A stretch of DNA of 55,284 bases from Nostocoides australiense Ben110 (lineage in GTDB: Bacteria; Actinomycetota; Actinomycetes; Actinomycetales; Dermatophilaceae). A model generated the notes under the pieces. The model ran no database searches, was not told the DNA's origin, and saw only the letters and a program-made list of their open reading frames with translations. Positions within the stretch are counted from its first letter, which is position 1, and each line of letters begins with the position of its first letter. Shown here piece by piece: positions 4,521 through 48,084 of the stretch. The translations under genes were made by a program, and so were the position numbers. The stretch spans positions 1-55,284 of the forward strand of contig NZ_HG764815.1 of assembly GCF_001050535.1 (NCBI RefSeq). Reading direction: 5' to 3'.

Positions 4521-4626
4521 CGACGACCACTTGGGGCGTCAGCGGCGCCTGTCTACTCCTGCGGGGGCGCCAGTGATACGCAGGCGGCCTGCAGAAACTG
4601 CACTGCAGCGGGACTTGTGCGCCAAT

Positions 4627-4649
4627 ACATGCGGCTTTTGGCCGCATGT
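4627..4649. promoter_or_regulatory. Perfect inverted repeat upstream of kamD, candidate operator
   Basis: Arms ACATGCGGC (4627-4635) and GCCGCATGT (4641-4649) are separated by TTTTG. The repeat sits directly upstream of where the -35 of the kamD promoter would fall (about 4650-4655, with the -10 at 4673-4678). It is not followed by a T-tract and lies upstream of genes on both sides, so an operator is likelier than a terminator. The regulator is unknown. Confidence 0.5.
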
Positions 4650-4672
4650 AGCGGATAATTTACGACCGGCGA

Positions 4673-4678
4673 TATGCT
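4673..4678 (+). promoter_or_regulatory. Candidate -10 box of the kamDE-kal operon
   Basis: TATGCT ends six bases before the GTG start of kamD at 4685, the spacing expected for a leaderless actinobacterial transcript. No clear Shine-Dalgarno precedes the GTG. The same arrangement recurs before about a dozen genes in this window. Confidence 0.45.
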
Positions 4679-4684
4679 GGACGG

Positions 4685-6283: not shown

Positions 6284-7140
6284 ACCCCCCACCCCGCACC
6301 GAGGCTCAAGAGACCCGCAACAAGTCCCGCCAGCACGTCGGGCAACGCCGCATGGAAGACGCCCTCCCCGGCGAGTTGAGCCTGCACGAGGAATCGCCGC
6401 TGGTGCGTCCCTACGGCGACACCACCGGCGACGGCATGGTGCAGATCTCCTTCACCCTGCCCGTCCCGCACGACAAGCGGGCCGAGGGCGCCGCCCTCCA
6501 GCTGGCCGCCAAGATGGGCATGAGCCCGGCGATCCTGGTCCACGCCAAGTCGATCGCCCCCAGCTTCACCTTCTTCGTCGTCTACGGCGCTGTCACCCAC
6601 CTGGTGGACCTGCGCGAGGTCGAGGTGGTCGAACGCGACTTCGACGTCCTCTCCGCGCGTGACACCAACGCCCTGATCCGGAAACGCTTGCGCCGCAAGC
6701 TCGTCGTCGTCGGCGCCTGCATCGGCACCGACGCCCACACGGTCGGCATCGACGCCATCCTCAACATCAAGGGATTCGCTGGGGAGAAGGGCCTGGAGTA
6801 CTACCGGGAGATGGCCGTGCACAACCTGGGCGCGCAGGTGCCGATCCCCGAGCTCGTCAACGCCGCCCACGACCTGCGTGCCGACGCCGTCCTCGTCTCC
6901 CAGGTCGTCACCCAGAAGGACGCCCACATCCACAACACGACCGCGATGAGCGCCGCCTTCCGTGAGGCGTTCCCCGCCGGCAAGGTGCCCTTGCTCATCG
7001 TCGGTGGTCCGCGCTTCGAGGAGGGCTCCGCCAAGGAGCTCGGCGTGGACCGGATCTTCGGCCGCGGCACCACGCCTGGTGAGGTCGCGTCATACCTCGT
7101 GCACGCCATGATCGAGCGCCCGAAGGGAAAGAGCGCATGA
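6280..7140 (+). CDS. kamE: Lysine 5,6-aminomutase beta subunit (cobalamin- and PLP-binding)
   Basis: 286 residues. The base-off cobalamin signature D-x-H-x-x-G is present as DAHTVG, with H153 as the expected lower axial ligand. Eleven residues later is K164, the same spacing as between the axial histidine and the PLP-binding lysine of the clostridial beta subunit. Residues about 135-280 are the Rossmann-like B12 domain, with further family runs IPELVNAAHDLRADAVLVSQVVTQKDAH and LLIVGGPRF. The ATG overlaps the kamD stop (ATGA), and the stop in turn overlaps the kal start by the same device. Both cofactor ligands are intact, so an active mutase is expected if the cell makes or imports B12. Confidence 0.95.
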   Translation: MNPPPRTEAQETRNKSRQHVGQRRMEDALPGELSLHEESPLVRPYGDTTGDGMVQISFTLPVPHDKRAEGAALQLAAKMGMSPAILVHAKSIAPSFTFFVVYGAVTHLVDLREVEVVERDFDVLSARDTNALIRKRLRRKLVVVGACIGTDAHTVGIDAILNIKGFAGEKGLEYYREMAVHNLGAQVPIPELVNAAHDLRADAVLVSQVVTQKDAHIHNTTAMSAAFREAFPAGKVPLLIVGGPRFEEGSAKELGVDRIFGRGTTPGEVASYLVHAMIERPKGKSA

Positions 7141-7520
7141 GCGCACCCGAGATCGGTATGGAAGTCCGGCACAGCCGGTATGTCCCCTACAGTCACGCCC
7201 ACTACGCCGGCAACCTCGTCGATGGCGCCTATTCGCTCGCCGCCTTCGGTGATGTCGCGACCGAGATGTGCATCCGCACCGACGGCGACGAGGGCCTGTT
7301 CGCCTCCTACAGCGATGTGCAGTTCAAAGCCCCTGTGCGAGCCGGCGATTGCATCGAGATCATCGCCCGGCTCGTGCGGGCGGGCACCCGCAGCCGGGAG
7401 ATGGAGTTCGAGGTCCGGGTCATCGCGCGCGGCAACCCGGAGCGTTCCGAGTCCGCCGCCGACCTGCTCGACCCACCGATCGTCGCCACCACCGCGCGCG
7501 GCGTCGTCGTCGTCCCCTGA
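7137..7520 (+). CDS. kal: 3-aminobutyryl-CoA ammonia-lyase (hotdog fold)
   Basis: A 127-residue single hotdog-domain protein matching the Kal family of lysine fermentation, which deaminates L-3-aminobutyryl-CoA to crotonyl-CoA. Characteristic runs are SHAHYAGNLVDGA, FGDVATEMCIRTDGDEGL and VQFKAPVRAGD. Coupling to kamE by ATGA shows it belongs to the same operon, so the operon covers steps 2 and 5 of the beta-lysine route. The dehydrogenase and cleavage enzyme for the steps between must be elsewhere or replaced. Crotonyl-CoA would feed butyrate or poly-hydroxyalkanoate metabolism. Confidence 0.9.
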   Translation: MSAPEIGMEVRHSRYVPYSHAHYAGNLVDGAYSLAAFGDVATEMCIRTDGDEGLFASYSDVQFKAPVRAGDCIEIIARLVRAGTRSREMEFEVRVIARGNPERSESAADLLDPPIVATTARGVVVVP

Positions 7521-13023: not shown

Positions 13024-14652
13024 GTGAGTCGCGACGTGCCTGCCCCGATCCTGCCGGCGCGCCTGCTCCTCGCCCTCGCCGGCGGCGGCGCGATCGCGCT
13101 CGCCTTCCCCGACCACAATCAGTGGTATGCCGCGTGGCTCGGCTGCGGCTTGATCGCCGCGGCCGGCTGGGTCGCACGCTGGCGCACCGGATTCCTCGTC
13201 GGTCTCGTGGCGGGCCTGGCCTATTTCGTCCCGACGCTCTCGTGGTCGGGGGTGTTCGTCGGCAAGCTGCCGTGGATTGCTCTGGCGACGCTGGAGGCGC
13301 TGTATGTCGCGGCGATGGTCGCCGTCATCGGCCCGATCCAGCGACGGTTGGTCGAGCGCCGGCTGGGGTGGGCGGCCTCCGCGACCGTGCCTCTCGGCTG
13401 GGTCGTGGGCGAGTGGGCCCGCAGCACCACCCCCTTCGGCGGATTCCCTTGGGCGCGACTGGCCTTCAGCCAGGCCGACTCGCCGCTGCGCAACCTGATG
13501 AGCCTTGGTGGTGCGCCGCTGCTCACGGCCGCCGTCGCCACGCTCGGGGTGCTGCTGTATGCCGTGGCTCGCGCCGCCCTGGCCACTCGCAGCCGCGCCC
13601 TGACGTCTCGTCGCCGCGTCCTGACGTCAAGTCGCCGCGTCCTGGTGCCCGCCGTCGCGGCCGTCGCGCTGGCGACGCTGCCCCTCGCCATACCGCTCGC
13701 TGGGACGTCGAGCACCACCGCACGAGTGGCGATCGTGCAGGGCAATGTCCCCAAGGCCGGACTGGACTTCAACGCCGAACGCCGGGCGGTCCTCGACAAC
13801 CACGTCCGCGGGACCGAGGCCCTGGCCGCCACCGCCGGCGCTCTCGACCTGGTGATCTGGCCCGAGAACGCCGCCGACATCGACCCGCTGCGCAACACCG
13901 ACGCCGCCGCCGTCATCACCGACGCCCGCAACGCCGTCAAAGCCCCGCTCCTGCTCGGCGCCATCCTCGAGGAGCCGGCGCCCTTGGTCTCCAACGCCTC
14001 GCTGCTCTATCGCCCCGGCGTCCTCGATCCGGAGCGTTACGTCAAACAGCATCCCGTGCCGTTCGCCGAATACGTTCCATACAAGGACTTCTTCCGCCGC
14101 TTCAACTCCAATGTCGACCTCGTCCGCGACGGCATGGCCACAGGGACGCAGGTGGGTTACTTCGCGTTGCGGACCCGCTCCGGCGCCCCGTTCGCCGCGC
14201 TGCCGACGATCTGCTTCGAGGTGGCCTATGACGGTCTGATCCGGAAGGCAGTCACGCACAGTCCGCAGGTGCCCAGCGTCTTGGTGGTCCAGACCAACAA
14301 CGCCACCTTCGGCTACACCGCCGAGTCCGAGCAACAGTTCGCGATCTCCCGGCTGCGCGCCATCGAACACAACCGGCCCGTCGCCCACGTCTCCACGGTG
14401 GGGGTGAGCGGCTTCATCCGCCCCGACGGGAGCTATGCCGACAAGTCGTCGTTGTACACCGCATACCGTGCCGTCGCCGACCTGCCCCTCGGCCAGGGGA
14501 CGACCATCGCGGACCGGCTCGGCCGCATACCGGAATACACCGCCCTAGCTGGGCTGTCACTGGCGTGGGGATTGGGTCGCGGCCCCCGGCGCCGCGATAA
14601 TGGCCCGTCAACCACCCGCTCGAGCAGCGCGAAAGAAGCAACACGTGTCTGA
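13024..14652 (+). CDS. lnt: Apolipoprotein N-acyltransferase
   Basis: 542 residues from the GTG at 13024. The N-terminal half has about six to seven membrane helices. The C-terminal half is the nitrilase-fold catalytic domain with the triad E281 (VIWPENAAD), K341 (YVKQHPVPFAEY) and C397 (TICFEVAYDG). It acylates the N-terminal cysteine of lipoproteins at the outer face of the membrane. A membrane-proximal insert with the repeat TSRRRVLTSSRRVL (about residues 195-210) looks like a local duplication. The stop overlaps the ppm1 start by eight bases. In mycobacteria these two functions are either fused or adjacent, so the overlap here fits a conserved lipoprotein/glycolipid unit. Confidence 0.95.
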   Translation: MSRDVPAPILPARLLLALAGGGAIALAFPDHNQWYAAWLGCGLIAAAGWVARWRTGFLVGLVAGLAYFVPTLSWSGVFVGKLPWIALATLEALYVAAMVAVIGPIQRRLVERRLGWAASATVPLGWVVGEWARSTTPFGGFPWARLAFSQADSPLRNLMSLGGAPLLTAAVATLGVLLYAVARAALATRSRALTSRRRVLTSSRRVLVPAVAAVALATLPLAIPLAGTSSTTARVAIVQGNVPKAGLDFNAERRAVLDNHVRGTEALAATAGALDLVIWPENAADIDPLRNTDAAAVITDARNAVKAPLLLGAILEEPAPLVSNASLLYRPGVLDPERYVKQHPVPFAEYVPYKDFFRRFNSNVDLVRDGMATGTQVGYFALRTRSGAPFAALPTICFEVAYDGLIRKAVTHSPQVPSVLVVQTNNATFGYTAESEQQFAISRLRAIEHNRPVAHVSTVGVSGFIRPDGSYADKSSLYTAYRAVADLPLGQGTTIADRLGRIPEYTALAGLSLAWGLGRGPRRRDNGPSTTRSSSAKEATRV

Positions 14653-15430
14653 CGCCACTGGCACCCGCGAACCCGTCCGCCGGGTCCTGATCTGTATCCC
14701 GACCTACAACGAGCGGGAGAACCTGCCGCTCGTCGTGGCCGGCGTGCGCGAGCACGCCCCCGAGGCGGACATCCTCGTCCTGGACGACAACTCGCCGGAC
14801 GGCACCGGCGCCCTCGCCGACGAGCTCGCCGCGGCCGACGAGCATGTGCACGTGTTGCACCGCGCCGGCAAGGAGGGGCTCGGCATGGCCTATCTCGCCG
14901 GCTTCGACTGGGGGCTCGAGCGTGGCTACGACGCCATCATGGAGATGGATGCCGACGGCTCTCACCAGCCGAAATACCTCCCGGCGATGATTGCCGCCAT
15001 CGCCGATGCCGACGTGGTCATCGGGTCGCGGTATGTCCGCGGCGGCTCCGTGGTGAACTGGCCGGCCTCCCGCAAAGCCCTGTCGATGGGCGGCAACCTC
15101 TACATCCGCATGATCCTCGGGATGGGTGTGCGCGATGCCACCGCCGGATTCCGGGTCTACCGCGCGAGCGCGCTGCGCACCATCGGCCTGGAGCAGGTCG
15201 CCTCGCAGGGCTATTGCTTCCAGACCGACCTGACGGTGCGCGCCGTGCGGGCCGGCCTGAAGATCGTTGAGGTGCCGATCGAGTTCGTCGAGCGTGAGAT
15301 CGGGGCCTCGAAGATGAACAACGACATCGTCAAGGAATCCATGGCGCGCGTCACTCGTTGGGGAATCGAACACCGAACCGGCCAGGTCAAGAAGCTCGTG
15401 AAGCGGGAAGCGCAATGGGAGAAGTTGTAG
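14645..15430 (+). CDS. ppm1: Polyprenol monophosphomannose synthase (GT2)
   Basis: 261 residues from a GTG at 14645, preceded by AAAGAAG six bases upstream; an ATG at 14600 inside lnt is less likely. The GT-A fold signatures are CIPTYNERENLPLVV at the N-terminus, LDDNSPDGT (first acidic pair) and MEMDADGSHQPKYL (metal-binding DAD), followed by GSRYVRGGSVVNWP and the acceptor region FVEREIGASKMN. It transfers mannose from GDP-mannose to polyprenol phosphate, feeding lipoglycan synthesis and protein O-mannosylation. There are no membrane helices of its own, so it probably relies on the neighbouring Lnt-like protein for membrane attachment, as known in mycobacteria. Confidence 0.95.
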   Translation: MSDATGTREPVRRVLICIPTYNERENLPLVVAGVREHAPEADILVLDDNSPDGTGALADELAAADEHVHVLHRAGKEGLGMAYLAGFDWGLERGYDAIMEMDADGSHQPKYLPAMIAAIADADVVIGSRYVRGGSVVNWPASRKALSMGGNLYIRMILGMGVRDATAGFRVYRASALRTIGLEQVASQGYCFQTDLTVRAVRAGLKIVEVPIEFVEREIGASKMNNDIVKESMARVTRWGIEHRTGQVKKLVKREAQWEKL

Positions 15431-15448
15431 TCACGACGGAGTCCGCGG

Positions 15449-15976
15449 ATGCCTAGGGTGAGCGGGTCCACACCGTATGCGGCGGGGGCCGCGGGGTCGC
15501 GCCGCCGGCCGTGGCGGCTGTGGCTCCTCCTCGCACTGCTGATCGTGCCGGTCCTCGAGATCGCCGCCATCATCGCGGTGGGCAAGGTGATCGGCGGCTG
15601 GCCGACCGTCGCGCTCCTGCTCTTCGAGTCCTTCCTCGGGGCCTGGTTGGTCCGCCGCGAAGGCGCCCGGACGTGGAAGGCCCTCAACACCGCCCTGACC
15701 ACCGGCGCCATGCCGTCACGTCAGCTGGCCGACGCGGCGCTGGTCCTGATCGGCGGGACCCTGCTGCTGACGCCCGGCTTCCTCACGGACATCGTCGGGT
15801 TCTTCTTCATCCTGCCCGTCACCCGCCCGATCACTCGGCGCCTGCTCGAACAGGCGGTGCGCGCCCGCCTTCTCGGGGGCGCTGCAGCCGCCGCCGGAGC
15901 CAAGTTTCCCGGAAGTCGCCCAGGTCACAGGCCTGCGAGCCCGGACACGGTCGAAGGACGTGTCGTCGACCGGTAG
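15449..15976 (+). CDS. fxsA: FxsA family membrane protein
   Basis: 175 residues with three to four hydrophobic segments: WLLLALLIVPVLEIAAIIAVG, WPTVALLLFESFLGAWLV, and a pair around VLIGGTLLLTPGFLTDIVGFFFILP. The PGFLTD motif and the following R-rich turn are diagnostic of FxsA/YtzA proteins (E. coli FxsA relieves F-plasmid PifA exclusion of phage T7). The C-terminal 35 residues are low-complexity and variable. It lies 18 bases after ppm1 and upstream of rbpA, a common order in Actinobacteria. Its cellular role is unknown. Confidence 0.9.
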   Translation: MPRVSGSTPYAAGAAGSRRRPWRLWLLLALLIVPVLEIAAIIAVGKVIGGWPTVALLLFESFLGAWLVRREGARTWKALNTALTTGAMPSRQLADAALVLIGGTLLLTPGFLTDIVGFFFILPVTRPITRRLLEQAVRARLLGGAAAAAGAKFPGSRPGHRPASPDTVEGRVVDR

Positions 15977-16072
15977 ACTGTAATGTCTGGCCCTCACCGC
16001 GGAGGGTCAAGACACCCCCGGCGCGAGCGCTCCCCGTCCGCCGGGCGCGAATCGGCGCACCATATCCGTCTC

Positions 16073-16099
16073 GGAACAATGCCGCCGCGCTCGCGCGTT
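16073..16099 (+). promoter_or_regulatory. Candidate SigR/SigH-type promoter of rbpA
   Basis: GGAAC (16073-16077) and GTT (16097-16099) are separated by 19 bases, matching the ECF SigR/SigH pattern GGAAY-N18/19-GTT. The predicted transcript would start near 16107 and carry a leader of about 60 bases before the rbpA ATG. In Streptomyces coelicolor rbpA is a known SigR target, so thiol-stress control is expected. Confidence 0.55.
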
Positions 16100-16169
16100 C
16101 ATATCCATAGACCCTCGCGGCCTGCACCCACCGCGAGACCAGCACCGAGTTATTTAGGGAGTTCCACCC

Positions 16170-16526
16170 ATGGCCGACCGCACATTGCGGGGTAGCCGCA
16201 TGGTGTCCTTCAGCATGGAGACGTCCGAGAACGTCGTCCCCAGCGAGCGCCAAACCGTCGTCTACGTCTGCCCGCAGGACCACCGTATCGAGTTGCCGTT
16301 CTCCATCGAAGCCGAGATCCCCGCGACCTGGGAGTGCCGTTGCGGCGCCGAGGCGCTGCTTCTCGACGGCGCCGCGCCCGACCGCAAGCCGGTCAAGCCG
16401 GCCCGCACCCACTGGGACATGCTGCTTGAGCGCCGCTCCATCCCCGAACTCGAGGAACTCCTCGAGGAGCGGCTGACGCTGCTGCGTCAGTCCCGCGGCG
16501 AGAAGCCGAGCAAGCGCTCGGCCTGA
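16170..16526 (+). CDS. rbpA: RNA polymerase-binding protein RbpA
   Basis: 118 residues, the usual size. The N-terminal tail GSRMVSFSMETSENVVPSERQ, the zinc/core domain with CPQDH and WECRCGAEA, the basic linker RKPVKPARTHWDMLLERRS and the sigma-interaction helices SIPELEELLEERLTLLR are all present. RbpA binds the group 1 sigma factor and RNA polymerase and stabilises open complexes; it is restricted to Actinobacteria and is therefore the best taxonomic marker in the window. The ATG is preceded by AGGGAG eight bases upstream. A long leader with a SigR-like promoter precedes it. Confidence 0.97.
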   Translation: MADRTLRGSRMVSFSMETSENVVPSERQTVVYVCPQDHRIELPFSIEAEIPATWECRCGAEALLLDGAAPDRKPVKPARTHWDMLLERRSIPELEELLEERLTLLRQSRGEKPSKRSA

Positions 16527-16590
16527 GCCGCTCTCGCCGTCCCGGCGCGGCGGCTGACGATGCACCGGCGCACCTCGAGGCACGACGTGG

Positions 16591-16622
16591 CCGGCCCACC
16601 TTCTCCGGAGAAGATGGGCCGG
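16591..16622. terminator. Bidirectional hairpin terminator between rbpA and the UMF1 transporter gene
   Basis: Arms CCGGCCCACCTT and AAGATGGGCCGG (one mismatch) enclose the self-complementary CTCCGGAG, making a continuous 16-bp stem. It lies between the stops of two converging genes. There is no long T-tract, as is usual in high-GC Actinobacteria. Confidence 0.7.
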
Positions 16623-16658
16623 CTTCGCGCGTCCTGGACCGGCTTCGCGTGTCCTAGA
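16619..16658. repeat. 20-bp tandem duplication
   Basis: Two adjacent copies, 16619-16638 and 16639-16658, begin CCGGCTTCGCG and end GTCCT plus three to four bases; they differ at two positions. The second copy contains the transporter stop codon, so the gene tail was probably shaped by the duplication. Confidence 0.6.
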
Positions 16659-18042
16659 TCAGCACAGGTTGCTCGTTGCCGGCCTGGCGGATGCCTTCAC
16701 GGACATCGACCCGCGAGAGCAGGATGCCGCCGAGGACGAAGAAGACGATCAGGGCGATGATCGCCAGCCGGTAGGTGTGGGTCAGCTGGTAGACGAGCCC
16801 GAAGAGCAGGGTGCCGAACCAGCTGGTGCCGCGCTCCATCGCCTGGTAGAGGCTGAAGTACTCGGCTTCGCGCTTCTTGGGGACCAGCTGGCTGTAGAGG
16901 CTGCGCGAGAGCGCCTGGGAGCCGCCGAGGACGAGGCCGATGCCGACGGCCAGCACGATGAACGGGATGAACTTCTTCTCCGGGACGAAGTAGGCCACGA
17001 TCACGATGAGGGTCCACAGCGCGAGGGACCACAAGACGGTGCGCCAGGCGCCGTGCCGGCCCGCAAGTCTGCCGAAGAGCAGCGCGCCGAAGAAGGCGAC
17101 GAATTGCACGAGCAGGATGACGGCGATCAGCTGGGACTGTTCGAACTTCAGCTCCTCGGCGCCGTAGAGGCTCGAGGAGGAGATGACGGTCTGGATGCCG
17201 TCGTTGTAGAAGAGGTAGGCGAGCAGGAAGAGCATCGTCTGCGGATGGTGGCGGCGCAGGTCCCCGAAGGTGTTGCGCAACTGTTTGAGACTGCCGCCGA
17301 CGGCGCCCTCGCCGACCGCGGTGACCGGGCGCTCGACGCCGCGCAGGTTCCACATCCCCAGCACCGGGATGAGCGTGAAGATGCCCCACCACACGGCGGC
17401 GGACAGCATGCTGATCCGCACGGCCATACCGGTGCTCAGCCCGAAGGGTTTCATCGTCACCAGGACCAGGTTCAGCGCGAGCAGCAGCCCGCCGCCCAGA
17501 TAGCCGAGCGCCCACCCGCGTGAGGAGACCTTGTCCCGGTCGTTGGGATGGGCTATGTCGTTGAGGATCGCGTCGTAGATGACCAGCGAGGAGCCCAGGC
17601 AGATGGTCGCCAACACCATGAGTATGGCGCCCAGCTGCCAGCGGGTGCCCTCGACGAAGAAGAGCCCGGCGGCGGCCAGCGCGCCCAGCCACGCGAAGAT
17701 CCCGAGTAGGCGCGCCGGGCGTGGGGAGCGGTCCGCGACCGCGCCGATGAAGATGAGGAAGATCGCCGAGACGATCGTGGCGAAGGTCGTCGTGTACGGC
17801 GCCAGCGAGCCGGGGGCGATTGGTATGCCGAGCAGGCTCAAGTTGGTGTGGCACGCCAGGTCGGTGTCCTGTCCCGGGCAGGCCGCCTGCTTGGCGATGG
17901 TCGTGATGTAGGGGCCGTAGAGGACGGTGCCGATGGTGGTGACGAAGGCGGAGTTGGCCCAGTCGTACCAGTACCACGGCCGGACGTACTTGGCGTTCGC
18001 CGCGTAGTCCGGTGAGTCGACGTGCGCCGGCGCGGAAGTCAT
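16654..18042 (-). CDS. MFS transporter, UMF1/Atg22-like family
   Basis: 462 residues with about 12 membrane helices. The N-terminal WYWYDWANSAFVTTIGTVLY is the family hallmark (YDWANSAF), followed by the loop motif GAVADRSPRPARLLG. The periplasmic loop after helix 1 carries two cysteines (ACPGQDTDLACHT). The central cytosolic loop (about residues 225-250) precedes LLAYLFYNDGIQTVI, another UMF1 signature. The start is the ATG at 18042 before TSAPAHVDSPDY; 15 further codons upstream are possible. Substrates of bacterial UMF1 members are mostly unknown; the yeast relative exports amino acids from the vacuole. Confidence 0.9.
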   Translation of the reverse strand: MTSAPAHVDSPDYAANAKYVRPWYWYDWANSAFVTTIGTVLYGPYITTIAKQAACPGQDTDLACHTNLSLLGIPIAPGSLAPYTTTFATIVSAIFLIFIGAVADRSPRPARLLGIFAWLGALAAAGLFFVEGTRWQLGAILMVLATICLGSSLVIYDAILNDIAHPNDRDKVSSRGWALGYLGGGLLLALNLVLVTMKPFGLSTGMAVRISMLSAAVWWGIFTLIPVLGMWNLRGVERPVTAVGEGAVGGSLKQLRNTFGDLRRHHPQTMLFLLAYLFYNDGIQTVISSSSLYGAEELKFEQSQLIAVILLVQFVAFFGALLFGRLAGRHGAWRTVLWSLALWTLIVIVAYFVPEKKFIPFIVLAVGIGLVLGGSQALSRSLYSQLVPKKREAEYFSLYQAMERGTSWFGTLLFGLVYQLTHTYRLAIIALIVFFVLGGILLSRVDVREGIRQAGNEQPVLI

Positions 18043-40406: not shown

Positions 40407-41390
40407 ATGCAGAACCCCGCAGCGAAGCAGAACTCCGGAGCGAACGACTCCGCGCCGTCGACCGCCGGTCACTGGGCCAGCGCCTTCCCGATCGTCGAGC
40501 GTGAGGACATCTCCGCGGTCACCTTCAGCCTGACGGTGCGCCACCCGCTCATGGCCAAGGCCGCCCGTCCCGGACAGTTCGTCATCGTCATGTCGCACGC
40601 CGAGGGTGAGCGTATCCCGCTGACGATCGCCGACTTCGACGCCGCCGCCGGCACGATCACCCTTGTCATCCAGGCGGTCGGCAAGTCGACCCGGGAGATG
40701 CAACGACTCTGCCAGGTCGGCACCAGCCTGCACGGCATCGCCGGACCACTCGGCATACCCACCCCCATCGAGGCGAGCACCCGTTCCGGTGCCCCACCGA
40801 CCATCGTCTGTGTCGGTGGCGGTCTGGGGGTCGCGCCGGTCTATCCGCAGGCACGTGCCTGGCACGACGCGGGCGCCCGGGTGATGGGCGTCCTCGGCTT
40901 CCGCAACCGCAATTTGGTGTTCTGGGAGAACAAGTTCCGCGACGTGTGCGACGAGTTGATCCTCTGCACAGACGACGGTTCGGCGGGCACCCAGGGGATG
41001 GTGACCGACGGCCTGCGGCTGGCGCTCGAAGCCCACCCGGAGACCAGCGAAGTGATCGCCATCGGGCCGCCGGTGATGATGCGAGCGTGCGCCGAAGTGA
41101 CCCGGCCGCACGGCATACGCACCAGCGTCAGCCTCAACCCGATCATGGTCGACGGCACGGGGATGTGCGGCGGCTGCCGCGTGCGCGTGGGTGGTGAGGT
41201 GAAGTTCGCGTGCGTCGACGGGCCGGACTTCGACGCCCACCTCGTCGACTTCGACGACCTGGCCTCGCGGCTGCGCCGCTACGGCGAGGAGGAGGCCGAT
41301 GCGATGGCGCAGTGGGAGACGGTATGCCGCCGCGCCGAGCACACACAGGCCGACAGCTTGGCCTCCGCCCTCCCCGACGCGCGGGGCTGA
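40407..41390 (+). CDS. NfnA/SudB-like FAD- and [2Fe-2S]-binding ferredoxin:NADP+ oxidoreductase small subunit
   Basis: 327 residues from the ATG at 40407 (GTG at 40389 is possible). It is a PyrK/NfnA-type flavoprotein: PGQFVIVMSHAEGERIPLTIAD is the FAD-binding R-x-P-L-T motif, CVGGGLGVAPVYPQARAW the NAD(H) motif, and VDGTGMCGGCRVRVGG with FACVDGPDFDA is the C-terminal [2Fe-2S] site. In Nfn complexes this subunit takes electrons from NADH while the partner handles NADP+ and ferredoxin. A 35-residue N-terminal extension and a longer tail than Thermotoga NfnA are seen. The stop is two bases before the partner's GTG. Confidence 0.88.
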   Translation: MQNPAAKQNSGANDSAPSTAGHWASAFPIVEREDISAVTFSLTVRHPLMAKAARPGQFVIVMSHAEGERIPLTIADFDAAAGTITLVIQAVGKSTREMQRLCQVGTSLHGIAGPLGIPTPIEASTRSGAPPTIVCVGGGLGVAPVYPQARAWHDAGARVMGVLGFRNRNLVFWENKFRDVCDELILCTDDGSAGTQGMVTDGLRLALEAHPETSEVIAIGPPVMMRACAEVTRPHGIRTSVSLNPIMVDGTGMCGGCRVRVGGEVKFACVDGPDFDAHLVDFDDLASRLRRYGEEEADAMAQWETVCRRAEHTQADSLASALPDARG

Positions 41391-41392
41391 CC

Positions 41393-42898
41393 GTGGCCGC
41401 GAAACGCACCATCCGCAGCATCCCCCAGGAGCGCACTCCGGTGCGCGAGCAACCGCCGCTGGAACGCGCGAGGAACTTTGTCGAGGTCAATCTCGGGTAT
41501 GACGCGTCGGAGGCCGCCCGCGAGGCCCAGCGTTGTCTCTTCTGCGCTGACCAGCCGTGTGTGCGCGGATGCCCCGTCTCGATCGACATCCCGGGCTTCA
41601 TCCGGCAGATCTGCCACGAGGACCACCAGGGCGCCTACGACACGATCGCCCGGACCAACCTGCTGCCGGCCGTGTGCGGCCGCGTCTGCCCGCAGGAGAA
41701 CCAATGCGAAGGGGTCTGCACGGTCGGTGAGAGCCTCGAGCCGGTCGCGATCGGGCGGCTGGAGCGGTATGTCGGCGACCTGGCCATTGCGAACGACTGG
41801 GCGCGCCGCCCTTACATCTCCCCCACGGCATACCGGGTCGGCATCGTCGGCTCCGGGCCGGCGGGCATGGCGTGCGCAGCCGACCTGGCCAAGGCGGGCT
41901 GCCAGGTGACGGTCTTCGAGGCGCTGCACCTGCCCGGGGGCGTGCTGCGCTACGGCATCCCCGACTTCCGGCTGCCCGGGGAGGTCATCGACGCCGAGGT
42001 CGCCAACCTCGAGAAGCTCGGGGTGCGTTTCGAGTGCAACACCGTCGTCGGACGGCTCTTCACCATCGAGCAGATGCTCGAGGACCTCGGCTTCGACGCC
42101 GTCTTCATCGGCACCGGTGCCGGCTACCCGACGATGCTCGGCATCCCCGGCGACTCGCTCGGCGGTGTGCTGTCGGCGAACGAACTCCTCACCCGCGCCA
42201 ACCTGATGCAGGCCCGCGACTTCCCGGTGCACGACACCCCGATTCCCCTCGGCAAGCAGGTCGCCGTCGTCGGGGCCGGCAACACCGCCATGGACGCGAT
42301 GCGCGTCTGTCTGCGCCTCGGCGCCGAGCAGGTGCACTGCATCTATCGCCGTTCGCGCACCGAGGCACCCGCCCGGGCCGAAGAGGTGCATCACGCGGAG
42401 CAGGAGGGCATCGAGTTCCACTGGCTCACCAACCCGGTCGCCGTGCTCGACGACGGCGCGGGCAATGTCCGGGCGATGCGTTGCGTGCACATGGAACTCG
42501 GCGAGCCGGACGACTCCGGCCGCCGCCGGCCCGTGCCCATCCCCGGCAGTGAGTTCGAATTCCCTTGCGACCAAGTCGTTTTCGCGATCGGCACCAACGC
42601 CAACCCGATCATCGGGCAGACCTCGCGGCTGACGCTGAACCGGTGGGGCTATCTGCAGACCGACGACGACCTGGCCACGTCCATCGACGGCGTCTTCGCC
42701 GGTGGCGATATCGTCACCGGCGCCGCGACCGTCATCGAAGCGATGGGCGCCGGCCGCACGGCCGCGGCCGGCATCGTGCGCCATCTCGGCATCCGCGACG
42801 TGCGCCGGCGCTACGACGACGGCGAAGAACGGATCTTCGGCATTGCCGCGCACGAGCGCGGCCACGCCCGCGTGCGAGAGGTGGCGGCACTCCTATGA
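41393..42898 (+). CDS. NfnB/SudA-like (glutamate-synthase beta-type) FAD and [4Fe-4S] oxidoreductase large subunit
   Basis: 501 residues from a GTG at 41393. The N-terminal iron-sulfur domain has CLFCADQPCVRGCPVSIDIP and CGRVCPQENQCEGVC, enough for two [4Fe-4S] clusters. Two Rossmann motifs follow, VGIVGSGPAGMACAADLAK (FAD) and VAVVGAGNTAMDAMRV (NADPH), and the final FAD loop IDGVFAGGDIVTGAATVIEAMGAG. It is the catalytic partner of NfnA-like proteins and related to GltD. Its stop overlaps the KorA start (ATGA). In this setting it should pass electrons between NADPH and reduced ferredoxin. Confidence 0.9.
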   Translation: MAAKRTIRSIPQERTPVREQPPLERARNFVEVNLGYDASEAAREAQRCLFCADQPCVRGCPVSIDIPGFIRQICHEDHQGAYDTIARTNLLPAVCGRVCPQENQCEGVCTVGESLEPVAIGRLERYVGDLAIANDWARRPYISPTAYRVGIVGSGPAGMACAADLAKAGCQVTVFEALHLPGGVLRYGIPDFRLPGEVIDAEVANLEKLGVRFECNTVVGRLFTIEQMLEDLGFDAVFIGTGAGYPTMLGIPGDSLGGVLSANELLTRANLMQARDFPVHDTPIPLGKQVAVVGAGNTAMDAMRVCLRLGAEQVHCIYRRSRTEAPARAEEVHHAEQEGIEFHWLTNPVAVLDDGAGNVRAMRCVHMELGEPDDSGRRRPVPIPGSEFEFPCDQVVFAIGTNANPIIGQTSRLTLNRWGYLQTDDDLATSIDGVFAGGDIVTGAATVIEAMGAGRTAAAGIVRHLGIRDVRRRYDDGEERIFGIAAHERGHARVREVAALL

Positions 42899-44805
42899 CC
42901 CTTTCCCTCGACGATCACCTCAGGCGGGACGGCGACCCAGCAACCGGCAGACCGGCGGCTGAGGAGATAACGGAGATCTCGCAACACGTCGTGGAGATCA
43001 TCAGCGACTCCGGCGAGGGCGCGCAGCGGTGCGGGCAGTCGTTCGGGGCCGTCGCCGCGCGCGCGGGCAATGGCGTCTGGACGGTGGAGATCATCCCCGC
43101 CGAGATCCAACCCCCGGCCCGCAGCGTCGCCGGCGCGAGCGGCAACCGCATCCGACTGGGATCGCAGCGCATCACCAACGGCGGCGACGAGGCCGACCTG
43201 GTCGTCGCCTTCAACGAGCAGGTGCTGCTCGGCCGGGTGCACATGAAGGAACTCAAGCCCGGTTGCATCATCCTGCTCGAAGACATGTGGCGCGAGCATC
43301 GCGATCCGCGCATCCGGCAGGCATACGGGGAGACCTATGACGCGCTGGAGGCGACCGGCTATCGTCTCATCGAGATCCCGATGGAACGCGAGTGCCGCAA
43401 GCTCGTCGCCGACCCGCGGCGCGGCAAGAACATGTTCGCGCTCGGAATGCTTTGTGCCATCTACCAATTCGACCTCGGCCTCGCACGCGAGCAGGTCGCA
43501 ACGACCTTCCGCAAGAAGTCGGCGGCGCTGATCGAGTCCAACACCAACCTGCTGGTCGCCGGCTACACCTGGGCCCGCTCCAACCTCGACCTGGCATTCC
43601 ACATCCCGGCCGTCGCGGCCGGCGGGCGCCAGGTCGTCACCAATGGCAACACGGCCCTGGCCCTCGGGGTCGTCGCATCGGGCATGGAGATCTGCGCCAT
43701 GTACCCGATCACGCCGGCCACCTCTGCCTCGCACTATCTGAGCGAGATCTTCCCCAAGGTCGGCGGCATCGTCCACCAGGCCGAGGACGAGATCGCCGCC
43801 GCCACGTTCGCCATCGGCGCCTCCTTCGTCGGCAAGTGCGCGGTGACGATCACCTCCGGCCCCGGATACTCCCTCAAGCAGGAGGCCCTGGGGTTGGCCG
43901 TCATGGGCGAGATCCCGCTCGTCGTCGTCAACGTCCAACGCGGCGGCCCCAGCACCGGACAGCCGACGAAGGTCGAGCAGGGCGACCTGTTGACGACGAT
44001 CTTCGGCAGCCACGGCGACGCCCCGAAGGTCGTCATCGCCCCCAGCACGATCGAGGACTGCTTCTATTCGGTCATCGCGGCCCGGCGCATCGCGGAGACG
44101 TTCAATGTCGTGGTCGTCGTCCTGTCCGACGCCAGCCTGGCCACGGCCCAGCAGCCGTTCGCCCGTCCCGAGTTCGACCCGGCCTGGCTCGCTCCCCCGA
44201 TCGATCAGAGCCAGGTGCCGGAGGCGATGCAGCCGTATGCCTGGGACACCACCACCGGGCTGTCGCGCCGGTTCATCCCGGGCCAGCCGGGCGGCATGTA
44301 CACGCTCACCGGACTCGCGCACGACGCGTCCGCACACGTCGCATACGAACCAGCGGCCAACGAGGAGGGCATCCGGGCGCGCAGCCTGAAACTCGCTGCG
44401 CTGCAACGGAGCCTGAATCCTCCAACGATCTACGGTGACGACTCCGGAGAGTTGCTCGTCGTCGGGTGGGGCTCGACCAAGGGCGCTATCGAGGAAGCCG
44501 TCGACCGGGCCCGCGCCGAGGGCCGGCAGGTGTCCGCGCTGCACCTGCGCTTCCTCAACCCGCTGCCACCCGGGCTGCGGGAGATCATGGAACGATTCGA
44601 CGCGGTCATGACCGTCGAGGGCAACTGGAGTGACCGGAGCGACGAGACCCTCATCGACGAGTCGAACCGCCGCTATGGCGCGCTGGCGATGCTCCTGCGC
44701 TCGCGCTATCTCCTCGACGTGGACACCTGGAGCGAAGTGGGCGGGCAACCGCTCAAACCGGGCCGCGTGCACGCCGCCATGCTCAGGAAGCTGGACCAGC
44801 GATGA
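42895..44805 (+). CDS. korA: 2-oxoacid:ferredoxin oxidoreductase, gamma-alpha fused subunit (KorA-like)
   Basis: 636 residues. The gamma domain comes first (about 35-225: SDSGEGAQRCGQSFGAVAARAGN, then ITNGGDEADLVVAFNEQVL), followed by the alpha pyrimidine-binding domain (GNTALALGVVASGMEICAMYPITPATSASH, EDEIAAATFAIGASF, SGPGYSLKQEALGLA, NVQRGGPSTGQPTKVEQGDL) and the C-terminal transketolase-like domain. The order and length match the gamma-alpha fusions of mycobacterial KorA. With KorB it oxidatively decarboxylates a 2-oxoacid, likely 2-oxoglutarate or pyruvate, reducing ferredoxin and using CoA. The start overlaps the previous gene by ATGA and the stop overlaps korB by ATGA. Confidence 0.92.
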   Translation: MTLSLDDHLRRDGDPATGRPAAEEITEISQHVVEIISDSGEGAQRCGQSFGAVAARAGNGVWTVEIIPAEIQPPARSVAGASGNRIRLGSQRITNGGDEADLVVAFNEQVLLGRVHMKELKPGCIILLEDMWREHRDPRIRQAYGETYDALEATGYRLIEIPMERECRKLVADPRRGKNMFALGMLCAIYQFDLGLAREQVATTFRKKSAALIESNTNLLVAGYTWARSNLDLAFHIPAVAAGGRQVVTNGNTALALGVVASGMEICAMYPITPATSASHYLSEIFPKVGGIVHQAEDEIAAATFAIGASFVGKCAVTITSGPGYSLKQEALGLAVMGEIPLVVVNVQRGGPSTGQPTKVEQGDLLTTIFGSHGDAPKVVIAPSTIEDCFYSVIAARRIAETFNVVVVVLSDASLATAQQPFARPEFDPAWLAPPIDQSQVPEAMQPYAWDTTTGLSRRFIPGQPGGMYTLTGLAHDASAHVAYEPAANEEGIRARSLKLAALQRSLNPPTIYGDDSGELLVVGWGSTKGAIEEAVDRARAEGRQVSALHLRFLNPLPPGLREIMERFDAVMTVEGNWSDRSDETLIDESNRRYGALAMLLRSRYLLDVDTWSEVGGQPLKPGRVHAAMLRKLDQR

Positions 44806-45815
44806 CCGATCTCGACCACCTCGACCTCACCCACGCCAGCGCCGCGGAATGCCTGCTACGCCTCTACGACGAGCGCGTCGAGATCGAGGGCTTCCAGAAG
44901 GGCGTGCCGCGGTGGTGCTCCGGATGCGGAGACAATGCGGTCCTCGCCGCGTTGCAGCGCCTGCTGCGCGACGAAGGGCTGCGGCCGGAGAAGACGGTCT
45001 TCGTCTCCGGCATCGGCTGCTCGAGCCGGTTGCCGCACTATATGAACACCTACGGATTCCACGGCATCCACGGGCGCGCGCTGCCGGTCGCCGAGGGCGT
45101 GCGGATCGCGCGCCCGGACCTGAACGTCTTCGTCAATTCCGGCGACGGCGACTGCTTCAGTATCGGTGCGGCACACTGGATCCACGCCATCCGTTACAAC
45201 ATGAAGATGGTCGTGATGGTGCACGACAACCAGATCTACGGGCTGACCAAGAAGCAGGCGTCCCCGACCTCACCACGCGGCACCCGCAGCAATACGACCC
45301 CGCAGGGGTCCTTCCTCGAAGGGCTCAATCCCCTGACCGTCACCCTCGGCGTCCAGAACGTCTCCTTCGTGGCCCAGGCCGCCGACTGGATCCCTGAGGT
45401 GCTCTACGCCATCCTGCAAGCGGCCTTTAACCACGACGGACTCTCCTTCATCCGCATCGTCCAGCGCTGCCCCGAATGGATGCCCGACAACTTCGAGCCC
45501 TGGCTGCACGACCCTTCCCGAGTGCAGCTGCTGCATCACGAGGGCATGCCGGCATTCTCGTCGGGCCTCGCCTCGCTCTATCCGACCCGCCTCGATCACG
45601 ACCCGAGCGACATTCACCGGGCCAGAGAGCTTGCCTCGCAACACGATCCGATCCCGATAGGGGTTCTCTTCCACGATCCCACGGTGCCCCGCTACGACGA
45701 ACTCGTTCGGGCCGAGACCACCCACTCGCCCGCGGCGGTGCGTCAGCTGCTCGATGAGGAGTTCGACCGGTTCGCCGTGGTCAGCGACGGCGAAGGTGGG
45801 GGCGTCGATGACTGA
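44802..45815 (+). CDS. korB: 2-oxoacid:ferredoxin oxidoreductase beta subunit (KorB-like, TPP-binding)
   Basis: 337 residues. PRWCSGCGDNAVLAALQ holds the iron-sulfur cysteines and the conserved G-C-G-D, FVSGIGCSSRLPHYMNTYGFHGIHGRALPVA the substrate loop, and NSGDGDCFSIGAAHWIHA with VVMVHDNQIYGLTKKQ the TPP-Mg2+ site. A fourth Cys is in VQRCPEW. It partners KorA. Its stop overlaps the start of the ferredoxin-fusion gene by eight bases, so all five genes from 40407 to 48084 are packed without gaps. Confidence 0.92.
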   Translation: MTDLDHLDLTHASAAECLLRLYDERVEIEGFQKGVPRWCSGCGDNAVLAALQRLLRDEGLRPEKTVFVSGIGCSSRLPHYMNTYGFHGIHGRALPVAEGVRIARPDLNVFVNSGDGDCFSIGAAHWIHAIRYNMKMVVMVHDNQIYGLTKKQASPTSPRGTRSNTTPQGSFLEGLNPLTVTLGVQNVSFVAQAADWIPEVLYAILQAAFNHDGLSFIRIVQRCPEWMPDNFEPWLHDPSRVQLLHHEGMPAFSSGLASLYPTRLDHDPSDIHRARELASQHDPIPIGVLFHDPTVPRYDELVRAETTHSPAAVRQLLDEEFDRFAVVSDGEGGGVDD

Positions 45816-48084
45816 CACACGGCATCTCGCGGCAAAGGCCCAAACGCCCACCACCGGAGTGCGCAACGGGCAGCAGAACCGCGCCTCCTTCTATCTGACC
45901 GGACACCGGATGGGGACCGGTCTCGGTGACGTCGACGGCTTGGGGCTGCGGTCGGCCCACTTTGCGGCATACGGCGATCTCGACCGGCTCCGCTACGACT
46001 ATCCGCTGGTGCTGACCGACGACCGCGACGCCACCAACGCGCTGCAGTCGCTGTCGGGACTCGTCGATGCCCTGCTCGCCGAGATGGGCGACGCCCCCGA
46101 CTCCGACCGGATCCGCCACCACGCCATGGCGTTGGAGACCGAGATCCGGGCCCGGTCCGGCCACGGGCCCCAACGGCTTTCGGACGTCTGGGCCGCAGCT
46201 GCCACGTCACTCGTCGCTGCGGGCGGCGACGAGCACCTTGCGGACAGCCTGGCCCGCCTGACGGCAGCCCTGCGCATCGACGGGCAACTCGTCGCCTGCA
46301 CTGCAGACAGCTCCCGACAGGTCGTCGGCCACCTCTGGCGGCTCGTGCAGCAGGAGCGGACCGACCGGCTGGCCGCGCGGATCGAGCGGCTCCGCCAGCA
46401 GCTCGGCGACATCCTCGCCGCCGAACAGGCCAACTCGGTGGCGGGCCTGCGGCCCGACCGGCTCGCCCAGTCCCTGGGGCCCGTGGTCGGCGCCGAACTG
46501 GACGCCGACGCGCTGTCACGGCTGCTGACCGGCAACCGGCCGGCGACCCTGCTCTCGGATGCGCGCCGCGAGCGGGTCCAACGGCTCCTGGGGGTGCTCG
46601 ACGCCCAGCGGTTCGTGCCGGACGAAGACGACATCGACGGCGACGGGGACCTCTTCGAATTCGTCTACACCGACCCGGTGGCTGCGGTCACGGCCTACCA
46701 GGAGCGGTTTGCTGCCACCGCCGAACTGGCCAAGGCGCTGGTCGTCGCGGAGATGGAGGCCGACGGCCGCTACCGCGAGGAGGTGCACGACGCGCTTTTC
46801 GCGAAGTGGGATGTCGAGGACCTCGAGAGCGACATCCTCGACCTGTTCCCGAAATATCTCGTCGAGATCGACGCCGAGGCCATGACGGCCGAGCAGAGCG
46901 TGGTCCTCCTCGACGCCCTGGCCGCCGGCATACCCGTCAAGGTTCTCGTCCAGGTCAACGACCTGCTGCGCGGCACCTCCTCCAAGGAGCGATCGCCCGG
47001 CGGCGGCGTGCCGGCACGCAAGCTCGGGCGCTACGTCCTCGCAGCCGGCGAGGCGTTCGTGCTGCAGACCGCCAGCGCGGGCCTGTTCCACGTGCGCGAG
47101 CGGATCGTCACCGGCTCTCGCCTGCCGGGTGCCGCCCTCTTCGTCGTCTATTCCGGTGGAGGGCAGTGGCTCGGCGACCTGCCGCCCTATCTTGCGTCGG
47201 CCGCCGCCACCGAGGCCCGCGTCTTCCCCGCCTTCTGTTACGACCCGTCTGCGGGCGAGACCTGGGCGGACCGTCTCTCGCTCGGATGCAACCCGCAGAC
47301 CGATCTCGACTGGCCGGTGCATCGCGTGAGCTACGCGGACCAGCAGCTGCAACGCGTCACGCTGGAACTCCCGTTCACGGCAGCGGATTTCTGGGCCGGC
47401 GACGCCCGTATGCAGCCGCACCTGGCCATCGCCGGGCCGGACCGGTCGGAGGGGACGATCGCGCCCTTTGCCGAGCACTTCGCGTCCAACCCCGGCATCT
47501 GGACCGACGAACTGCCCTATGTGCTCATGGTCGACCGCGACGACCGGCTGAGCAGAGTGTTCGTGGACCGGCCCCTGGTGCACCGGGCCCAGCGCGACGT
47601 CGAACAGTGGCGGCGCCTGCAGGAACTCGGCGGCGTCCACAACTCCCACGTCGCACGCGAACTCGCCCGCCAACGTGCCCTTTTTGAGGCCGAGCTCGAT
47701 GCGGCGCGAGAGGCACCGGCGCCGGCACCGGCTCCCGGTCCGGTGGCCACGACCACCGCGCCCACCGGAGAGCCGGGAGAGCCGGGAGAGCCGGGAGCGC
47801 CGGATCCCGACGATCACGAACCGGTCGCCCGCGACCCCTACCTGCCGTGGATCGAGACCCTGCGCTGCTCGACGTGCAACGAGTGCACGCTGATCAACGA
47901 CAGGATGTTCGCCTACAACGAGAACCGGCAGGCATTCATCGCCGACCCCGACGCCGGCACCTACGCCGAACTGGTGCAGGCCGCGGAGAACTGTCAGGTC
48001 GCGATCATCCACCCGGCCAAGCCCCGCAACCCCGCGGAGGCCGGCTTGGAGGAGTTGGTCAAGCGCGCGGAGCAGTTCGCGTAA
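45808..48084 (+). CDS. 758-residue protein of unknown fold with C-terminal one-cluster ferredoxin domain
   Basis: The start overlaps the KorB stop. Residues 1-620 match nothing I recognise: an N-terminal phrase RASFYLTGHRMGTGLGDVDGL, a helical middle (about 60-380, many charged repeats such as ARIERLRQQLGDIL), and an alpha/beta part with RVFPAFCYDPSAGETWADR and GCNPQTDLDWPVHRVSYADQQ. A Pro/Ala and GEP-repeat linker (about 635-670) leads to a ferredoxin domain with C687, C690, C693 and C729 (CSTCNEC and ENCQVA), enough for one [4Fe-4S] cluster. The operon position makes it the electron acceptor or a scaffold for KorAB and the Nfn-like pair. What the large N-terminal region does is open. Confidence 0.85.
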   Translation: MTDTRHLAAKAQTPTTGVRNGQQNRASFYLTGHRMGTGLGDVDGLGLRSAHFAAYGDLDRLRYDYPLVLTDDRDATNALQSLSGLVDALLAEMGDAPDSDRIRHHAMALETEIRARSGHGPQRLSDVWAAAATSLVAAGGDEHLADSLARLTAALRIDGQLVACTADSSRQVVGHLWRLVQQERTDRLAARIERLRQQLGDILAAEQANSVAGLRPDRLAQSLGPVVGAELDADALSRLLTGNRPATLLSDARRERVQRLLGVLDAQRFVPDEDDIDGDGDLFEFVYTDPVAAVTAYQERFAATAELAKALVVAEMEADGRYREEVHDALFAKWDVEDLESDILDLFPKYLVEIDAEAMTAEQSVVLLDALAAGIPVKVLVQVNDLLRGTSSKERSPGGGVPARKLGRYVLAAGEAFVLQTASAGLFHVRERIVTGSRLPGAALFVVYSGGGQWLGDLPPYLASAAATEARVFPAFCYDPSAGETWADRLSLGCNPQTDLDWPVHRVSYADQQLQRVTLELPFTAADFWAGDARMQPHLAIAGPDRSEGTIAPFAEHFASNPGIWTDELPYVLMVDRDDRLSRVFVDRPLVHRAQRDVEQWRRLQELGGVHNSHVARELARQRALFEAELDAAREAPAPAPAPGPVATTTAPTGEPGEPGEPGAPDPDDHEPVARDPYLPWIETLRCSTCNECTLINDRMFAYNENRQAFIADPDAGTYAELVQAAENCQVAIIHPAKPRNPAEAGLEELVKRAEQFA

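Follow-up and report, generated by a model that had tools for sequence, protein, structure and literature searches.

Do five tightly spaced genes of an actinobacterium encode a single electron-transfer complex, and what is the large fifth protein that closes the set? The genes lie at 40407–48084 of a 55,284-nucleotide stretch from Nostocoides australiense Ben110 (contig NZ_HG764815.1, positions 1 to 55,284 of the forward strand; referred to as the window) and comprise an Nfn-like flavoprotein pair (genes 1 and 2), the 2-oxoacid oxidoreductase KorAB (genes 3 and 4) and a protein ending in a ferredoxin (gene 5). A preliminary description had taken them for a tightly coupled operon, and our reading of the sequence confirms this: all five are on one strand (+) with junctions of +2, −4, −4 and −8 nt, one 2-nt gap being followed by overlaps of 4, 4 and 8 nt, and their start codons agree with the N termini of relatives. 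We find that the five-gene module is real and conserved, and that its surprise is a recurrent dead β subunit carrying a ferredoxin, a putative KorAB adaptor with interchangeable outlets. Our reading, to which we assign a probability of about 0.6, is that the five products form an oxidoreductase complex between a 2-oxoacid (most likely 2-oxoglutarate) and NAD(P), in which gene 5 would act as a pseudo-β adaptor to a bifurcating-type Nfn. Gene order, homology, motifs lost and kept, conserved linkage and alternative outlets are observed; complex formation, substrate, direction and bifurcation we infer.

The fifth protein and its likely source

Neither Pfam nor NCBIfam has a family that gene 5 matches at E 0.001. 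Its AlphaFold2 model (predicted local distance difference test, pLDDT, 81.8; predicted template modelling score, pTM, 0.74) was compared with known structures using VIA-align. Residues 62–609 correspond to the β/thiamine pyrophosphate (TPP) fold of pyruvate:ferredoxin oxidoreductase (PFOR; 6cin_B, Z is 16.4, 272 aligned residues, 5.1 Å) and of the oxalate oxidoreductase β subunit (5c4i_C, Z is 14.2, 236 aligned residues, 3.7 Å), and residues 677–739 to ferredoxin I (1fxr_A, Z is 8.0, 63 aligned residues, 2.7 Å). VIA-align probed residues outside 65–606 poorly, save for the ferredoxin tail, and no absence is claimed there. The top Foldseek matches of the model are likewise PFORs.

A more specific relationship emerges with long PFORs (∼1640–1720 residues) that end in a ferredoxin. 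A profile of 23 gene 5 members matches the long PFOR of locus L077 at positions 274–632 (E is 2.4e-54) and 622–737 (E is 2.2e-52), the β/TPP domain and C-terminal ferredoxin of the one in L081 (E is 3.1e-53 and 2.7e-45, respectively), and the β part of the window genome's own long PFOR (E is 7.4e-46), all values being computed for a five-sequence set. The alignment shows that gene 5 has lost the CxGCGE pair, the TGCSS segment, the GDGAMxDIG...NTGGQ stretch and the CPxEHG cysteine. Five patterns for TPP (GDGxxxDIG ... NTGG) and the β cluster are found in none of 27 gene 5 members; in a positive control of ten long PFORs they occur in 10, 10, 9, 9 and 10 proteins, the single miss being L065, whose contig starts past those motifs. 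Three of the five patterns cover the β-subunit [4Fe-4S] cluster (0 of 27 members, against 9, 9 and 10 of the ten long PFORs). The 27 sequences are the 23 of alignment A3 together with L050, L113, L114 and L116 (L115, L117, L061, L064, L075 and L078 were left out of the count).

The ferredoxin motif, CxxCxxC plus a distal cysteine, is in turn found in 27 of 27 members and is invariant in the alignments, and Fer4_13 is matched at E ≤ 1 in 23 of 23 (best E is 8.1e-7). Invariant residues of the protein are most concentrated in this ferredoxin domain, which contains the four cysteines. The pseudo-β part has no convincing Pfam match in the 23 members, and many of its residues are invariant across phyla. 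Judged by sequence and predicted fold, gene 5 corresponds to the β (TPP) domain of a long PFOR in degenerate form, with a one-cluster ferredoxin at its end. The β domain and ferredoxin tail shared with the long PFORs make these its likely source; they differ in that the ten long PFORs checked keep their TPP and cluster motifs, which gene 5 lacks, as it lacks the α/γ part. The dedicated ferredoxin of the preliminary description holds for the C terminus of gene 5 only, and what this ferredoxin is fused to is a degenerate PFOR β domain rather than an uncharacterised protein.

We also note that Cys-164 of gene 5 (window 46297–46299) is nearly invariant and lies near the site of one lost cluster ligand. 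A gene 5 relative in genome G977 (L113, 8152–11070, +) forms a 972-residue frame with three tandem ferredoxin domains. Matches to residues 190–302 in L033–L035 were dropped, as the frames there look like a HAD-like hydrolase or noise.

Gene order and distribution

A scan using peptide patterns of gene 5 only returned 40 loci, which we refer to as the named scan. Seven are of the long-PFOR type (L065, L066, L067, L068, L076, L077 and L081), seven are not judgeable because the contig begins within the gene (L061, L062, L074, L075, L079, L080 and L082), and the remaining 26 are of the short type found in the window. KorB adjoins gene 5 in 24 of these 26 loci (exceptions are L078 and L070, the latter a fragment only), with the start of gene 5, at the chosen codons, lying −20 to +92 nt from the KorB stop. 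Contigs end before the Nfn position in L046, L048, L056 (where NfnB is seen) and L058, which leaves 20 loci with upstream DNA in view, and 17 of them have the order NfnA-NfnB-KorA-KorB-gene 5 (L043, L044, L045, L047, L049–L055, L057, L059, L060, L063, L071 and L072). L045 is the locus of genome G324 and is counted once. The 17 loci span four phyla as labelled in the records (Actinomycetes, Proteobacteria, Acidobacteria and Chloroflexi). The proposed linkage of the five genes therefore goes beyond chance, the window's order recurring in 17 other named loci, and gene 5 is found mainly in the company of KorAB and Nfn (KorB adjacent in 24 of 26 loci, the Nfn pair present in 17 of 20).

For the window, the 17 loci and L113 (19 loci in all), the five proteins have correlated matrices of pairwise distances (r of 0.66–0.88), and 0 of 999 permutations gave values as high; the rows are related by kinship, so that the permutation figure is no strict probability and genome ancestry adds to the correlation. 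Every one of the five protein trees contains the actinobacterial and the Chloroflexi group, and other branches vary. Clustering of open reading frames (ORFs) over the 40 named loci yields few shared families beyond the five genes and the Rnf/long-PFOR sets; citrate synthase (four loci) and an ABC-transporter type (five loci) are among them.

Around the window genome the module is rare, and across bacteria it occurs often enough to be studied. Gene 5 is found in one of 296 genomes of a phylum sample, in one of four genomes of the genus and in one of 13 genomes of the family of G324. An order sample has some gene 5 match in 25 of 297 genomes, near full length only in the window genome and in G324. 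Some KorA match is present in 174 of 186 genomes of the window's family, and the module's KorA is 35–39% identical to the ordinary KorAs of this family among the matches listed. The module is probably a rare accessory set there, gained or lost as a block. A scan of viral contigs found no relative.

The window genome contains both the E1 component of 2-oxoglutarate dehydrogenase (OGDH) and an ordinary KorAB besides the module, which makes the latter an accessory route. We had considered the module as a replacement for a missing OGDH and rejected this for the window genome, since OGDH E1 is present. Among 20 genomes with gene 5, the OGDH E1 model TIGR00239 scores below its cut-off in three and finds no match in four (G600, G601, G604 and G605, all labelled Chloroflexi), where the module could replace OGDH.

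Several observations weigh against our reading of the operon. TIGR00239 is above its cut-off in 13 of the 20 genomes with gene 5, the window genome included, so that the 2-oxoglutarate step is redundant there. No Nfn is in view beside KorAB and gene 5 in three of the 20 named loci (L064, L069, where KorA is truncated, and L073), and L070 and L078 contain a gene of the gene 5 type with no KorAB within ∼10 kb upstream. A module-type KorA occurs in only one of 186 genomes of the window's family (best match per genome). On the side of gene 5, Fer4_13 scores 19.9 for the window protein, below the Pfam gathering score of 24.5, and identity to the long PFORs is ∼25–32%, in an alignment that is gapped where the motifs are missing.

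The features of the operon are collected in Table 1. A scan of the operon for promoter- and terminator-like consensus sequences returned 0 and 0, and the genes flanking it in the window appear unrelated on inspection of their translations.

Table 1. Genes of the operon and segments of gene 5, in window coordinates
Feature	Position	Strand	Remarks
Gene 1, NfnA-like (NfnS/SudB type) flavoprotein	40407..41390	+	327 aa, ATG start
Gene 2, NfnB-like (GltA/NfnL type)	41393..42898	+	501 aa, GTG start; 2-nt gap after gene 1
Gene 3, KorA with N-terminal γ (POR) domain	42895..44805	+	636 aa; 4-nt overlap with gene 2
Gene 4, KorB-like β subunit	44802..45815	+	337 aa; 4-nt overlap with gene 3
Gene 5, predicted pseudo-β PFOR domain, linker and ferredoxin	45808..48084	+	758 aa; 8-nt overlap with gene 4
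Gene 5 residues 62–609, predicted PFOR β/TPP fold without TPP-Mg and β [4Fe-4S] motifs	45991..47634	+	AlphaFold2 model, alignment
Gene 5 residues 640–674, Ala/Pro/Gly-rich linker	47725..47829	+	low confidence, pLDDT < 50
Gene 5 residues 677–739, single-[4Fe-4S] ferredoxin domain	47836..48024	+	Cys 687, 690, 693, 729

Other oxidoreductase sets occur in the same genomes. In the window genome, gene 5 has one distant match, which lies inside an open frame of 1691 residues, a long PFOR beside a second Nfn-like pair. L038 (7261–12312, −, and 4442–7453, −; ∼194–202 kb of the window genome) holds a long PFOR of ∼1683 residues with a C-terminal Cys-rich tail and another pair of the Nfn type (42% to gene 1, 44% to gene 2), and a similar pairing is found in L037 of G324. 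At ∼760–767 kb of the window genome (L040, 5503–11846, +), a GltD-like gene, a 1193-residue NifJ-type PFOR and a dihydroorotate-dehydrogenase-like gene stand in a row, names that rest on sequence and one POR domain match. Near the five-gene set and citrate synthase of L071, a 767-residue PFOR-like protein is followed by another NfnA/NfnB-like pair (13194–17759, +). In L047 (12348–16766, +) and L051 (12437–17059, +), the module is directly followed by another oxidoreductase set for 2-oxoacids, which includes a GltD-like flavoprotein; L055 has a similar set upstream of the module.

The Nfn pair, KorAB and competing explanations

Gene 1 scores above the cut-off of NF004862 and contains a DHODB_Fe-S_bind domain, an FAD motif, an intact GGGxG NAD(P) motif and a [2Fe-2S] site with Asp and Cys (DGTGMCGGC ... 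ACVDGP). Its best match in the PDB is Pyrococcus furiosus NfnI (5jca_S, E is 3.6e-86), the 5vj7 homologue following at only 1.3e-47. Gene 2 is above the cut-off of TIGR01316, has Fer4_20 and Pyr_redox_2 domains, and contains two N-terminal four-Cys cluster motifs, an FAD motif, the NADP motif GAGNTA and the Arg of the FRLP motif, whose position was assigned by counting from the PDB alignment; its best matches are Thermotoga Nfn (4ylf_B, E is 1.1e-162) and 5jca_L (E is 1.6e-140). These features recur across the 19 loci: the FAD, GGG and [2Fe-2S] patterns of NfnA in all 19, ACVDGP in 18 (L072 has ACVEGP and keeps the Cys), both [4Fe-4S] motifs and the FRLP Arg of NfnB in all 19, and GAGNTA in 18 (not in L051). 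As in NfnAB, there are two separate subunits with nfnA 5′ of nfnB, an arrangement repeated in 17 other loci. From its motifs, the product of genes 1 and 2 would be a bifurcating-type Nfn, bifurcation itself being deduced. It resembles P. furiosus NfnI (5jca) and the Thermotoga enzyme (4ylf) in its two subunits, their order, the cofactor motifs and the bifurcation-linked Arg, and differs in that the pair, known here by its sequence, shares an operon with KorAB and the ferredoxin-bearing pseudo-β protein.

The alternative that survives best, though we consider it unlikely, is that the pair works as a plain, non-bifurcating ferredoxin:NADP+ (or NAD+) reductase, with the operon a simple five-gene 2-oxoglutarate:NADP+ oxidoreductase, an activity that Azoarcus evansii reportedly has. 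Both subunits are, however, closer to P. furiosus NfnI and Thermotoga Nfn than to the pair of 5vj7 (Xfn), an enzyme we take to be non-bifurcating, and the GGG motif of NfnA, which the 5vj7 chain has in altered form, is intact in all 19 loci. Not all Nfn homologues bifurcate (PMC9973337), but the FRLP Arg, which is linked to the low-potential FAD of Nfn (PMC7483475), is retained in every one of the 19 loci. A bifurcating-type Nfn qualifies the earlier proposal of a self-contained route from 2-oxoacids to NADPH: the route is plausible, yet an Nfn that forms NADPH consumes NADH besides reduced ferredoxin (PMC6405883).

Also unlikely, and somewhat more so, is the possibility that gene 5 is a mere diffusible ferredoxin carrier with a vestigial pseudo-β part and no stable complex, KorAB and Nfn being separate enzymes made together. 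Co-transcription by itself would account for the tight junctions, and two-subunit 2-oxoacid:ferredoxin oxidoreductases (OFORs) without an inner ferredoxin domain use free ferredoxin (PMC5020499). In L117 (genome G798), the ferredoxin is encoded in another frame than the pseudo-β part; we did not accept this split gene 5 as a natural variant, as KorA is there in three pieces and two frames and a sequencing frameshift is as likely. The predicted pseudo-β fold and the many residues invariant across phyla would be needless in a mere carrier, with the proviso that members were found using the whole protein as query, by which a bare ferredoxin at that place could be missed.

The catalytic and cluster motifs of KorAB are present. 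Gene 3 is above the cut-off of TIGR03710, has POR, POR_N and PFOR_II domains, and is best matched in the PDB by the 2-oxoglutarate:ferredoxin oxidoreductase of Magnetococcus (6n2n_A, E is 3.4e-73). Gene 4 has TPP_enzyme_C and PFO_beta_C domains and intact cluster cysteines and TPP motif (GDGDCFSIG); it scores 238.9 bits with TIGR02177, under the cut-off of 261.9. Across the 19 loci, KorA retains YPITP in 19 and QRGGPSTG in 17 (L050 and L053 keep the substrate-carboxylate Arg with a changed neighbour), and KorB retains WCxGCG and GIGCSSR in 19 and the last Cys, as [RQ]CP, in 18 (not in L053). A stricter TPP pattern for KorB matched just two of the 19 loci and was replaced by GDGD..SIG, which is found in all 19. 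Module KorAB shares with the Magnetococcus enzyme (6n2n), and by description only with the Mycobacterium and Thauera KorABs, the γ-α fusion plus β and the TPP and single-cluster motifs; it differs in having gene 5 as a near-constant third partner.

As for the substrate, L055, L056, L069 and L071 have a citrate synthase downstream of gene 5, at a distance of ≤1.8 kb. SucC and SucD follow gene 5 within a few kb in L114 (by family models), L115 (89% and 72% identity to L114, respectively) and L117 (92% and 80%); they are not present in L116. We favor 2-oxoglutarate because of these neighbors and because the closest solved KorA belongs to a 2-oxoglutarate enzyme, and on this basis, together with the residue hints given below, 2-oxoglutarate is most likely the KorAB substrate. 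It is improbable that the true substrate is instead pyruvate or a branched-chain or aromatic 2-oxoacid, even though the KorA and KorB families are broad. The residue of KorB equivalent to Lys-49 of the Sulfolobus OFOR, assigned by counting in the PDB alignment, is Arg, and the K49R exchange in that enzyme favors pyruvate (PMC5020499), which speaks weakly for pyruvate here; the same Arg, however, is found in the Magnetococcus 2-oxoglutarate enzyme. The position equivalent to Asp-468 of the α subunit is Leu in the module as in Magnetococcus and in the 2-oxoglutarate-specific KorAB of Hydrogenobacter (PMC5020499), and SucCD and citrate synthase as neighbors also point away from other 2-oxoacids. 

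For gene 5, the nearly invariant Cys-164 and the allosteric part that pseudoenzymes often play would fit a factor that assembles or regulates KorAB, or a still active enzyme with another cofactor, in place of an electron wire. This is very improbable, given that the ferredoxin domain is the densest invariant stretch and that the gene 5 frame of genome G977 (L113) includes two additional copies of the ferredoxin.

Our reading of the operon as a KorAB–gene 5–Nfn complex can be compared with other oxidoreductases. The OorDABC enzyme of Helicobacter pylori (8ys5) is also a multi-subunit 2-oxoglutarate oxidoreductase, in which chain C is the β subunit and OorD presumably a ferredoxin-like subunit; to our knowledge, it has no pseudo-β domain or Nfn pair. 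KorAB with BzdV of the benzoyl-CoA clusters resembles the module in coupling a 2-oxoacid oxidoreductase to a pyridine-nucleotide flavoprotein, and the 2-oxoglutarate:NADP+ oxidoreductase of A. evansii and the phenylglyoxylate dehydrogenase PadEFGHI are said to be coupled likewise. These systems reportedly have one GltD-like flavoprotein, not an Nfn pair, and we know of no pseudo-β subunit in them; the A. evansii enzyme reportedly consists of KorAB and one NADP(H) flavoprotein. The genes korAB and bzdV are named together in PMC5736913, and in the aromatic degradation cluster of Rhodopseudomonas palustris some strains have KorAB and others AadN, which is an Nfn-like fused protein (PMC9973337). 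We found no description of the five-gene set or of a pseudo-β ferredoxin protein in the literature searched, whose reach excludes most subscription journals.

Electron outlets and proposed role

Apart from the named scan, the gene 5 profile alone was run (E 1e-30) against 274 genomes from the class of G590. Matches were obtained in 20 genomes, with the short form in six: G590 (L047, already part of the named scan), G977, G866, G983, G931 and G798. The other genomes match from about position 270 only, in the manner of long PFORs, DNA having been inspected in two of them (L118 and L119). KorA and KorB lie upstream of gene 5 in all six short-form genomes, the Nfn pair in two (G590 and G977). In the other four (L114–L117), RnfB is located directly downstream of gene 5 (63–89% to RnfB of L114, which is above the cut-off of TIGR01944), and RnfC closes the set in four of four, the end of the stretch cutting it in three. 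In L078 (9521–13028, +), a gene-5-like ORF, partly masked, is directly followed by RnfB, and no KorAB was found upstream. Gene 5 thus tracks KorAB more than Nfn: the stable unit is KorAB plus gene 5, and the outlet varies between Nfn and RnfB. RnfC is also found downstream of the long PFOR in seven of seven named long-PFOR loci (L065–L068, L076, L077 and L081), which suggests that a ferredoxin tail of this kind serves Rnf.

RnfC further lies just 3′ of a long PFOR of this type in L118 and L119, and 3′ of the contig-cut similar C termini in L079 and L082 (with a wider gap in L082), a PFOR–Rnf pairing that recurs. In L077 (1792–16342) and L081 (1668–15308, +), KorAB is followed by a gene of 331–364 residues that Pfam does not match, then by RnfB, a long PFOR ending in a ferredoxin, RnfC and more Rnf-like genes, a run that suggests 2-oxoacid oxidation wired to Rnf. 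The 331–364-residue gene between KorB and RnfB gives only weak matches to gene 5 in a hidden Markov model search, and a profile-profile comparison returned 36.8% probability (E is 3.6e-4, 221 columns). On the 5′ side of the KorAB-gene 5-RnfB set, L114 (2281–5801), L115 and L117 encode a fumarate-reductase/SdhA-like flavoprotein; the L114 segment further holds a NuoF-like gene and a small protein that no NCBIfam model matches at E 1e-10.

We propose the following scheme. KorAB would convert 2-oxoglutarate and CoA to succinyl-CoA and CO2 at its own TPP, electrons leaving one at a time via the [4Fe-4S] cluster of KorB. Gene 5 would descend from the C-terminal half (β domain and ferredoxin) of a long ferredoxin-tailed PFOR; in gene 5 the TPP and β-cluster motifs were lost, and the fold and tethered ferredoxin retained. 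The protein may dock on KorAB as a pseudo-β subunit, its ferredoxin reaching a partner enzyme on the flexible linker. Here a bifurcating-type Nfn would be that partner, where low-potential electrons and NADH would reduce NADP+; with the stoichiometry of the Nfn family, one 2-oxoglutarate and one NADH would yield two NADPH. In the reverse direction, NADPH would drive reductive carboxylation to 2-oxoglutarate. In other lineages the same KorAB-gene 5 unit stands beside RnfB.

More generally, and only tentatively, KorAB and its dead, ferredoxin-carrying β paralogue may form a modular, reversible electron-channelling core that plugs into Nfn or Rnf, the Nfn form working without free ferredoxin. If so, a catalytic oxidoreductase subunit would have become an adaptor dedicated to electron transfer. 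This would account for the different outlets of one 2-oxoglutarate oxidoreductase, Nfn for NADPH and Rnf for ion gradients. The Nfn form would let facultative or aerobic bacteria run a confurcating 2-oxoglutarate oxidation that gains two NADPH at the cost of one NADH, and the reverse mode of the supercomplex would be an NADPH-driven reductive carboxylation of succinyl-CoA. The module would then be an example in which low-potential electrons stay within a complex, in bacteria many of which possess an ordinary OGDH as well, and gene 5 points to a protein family whose large pseudo-β part lies outside convincing Pfam matches.

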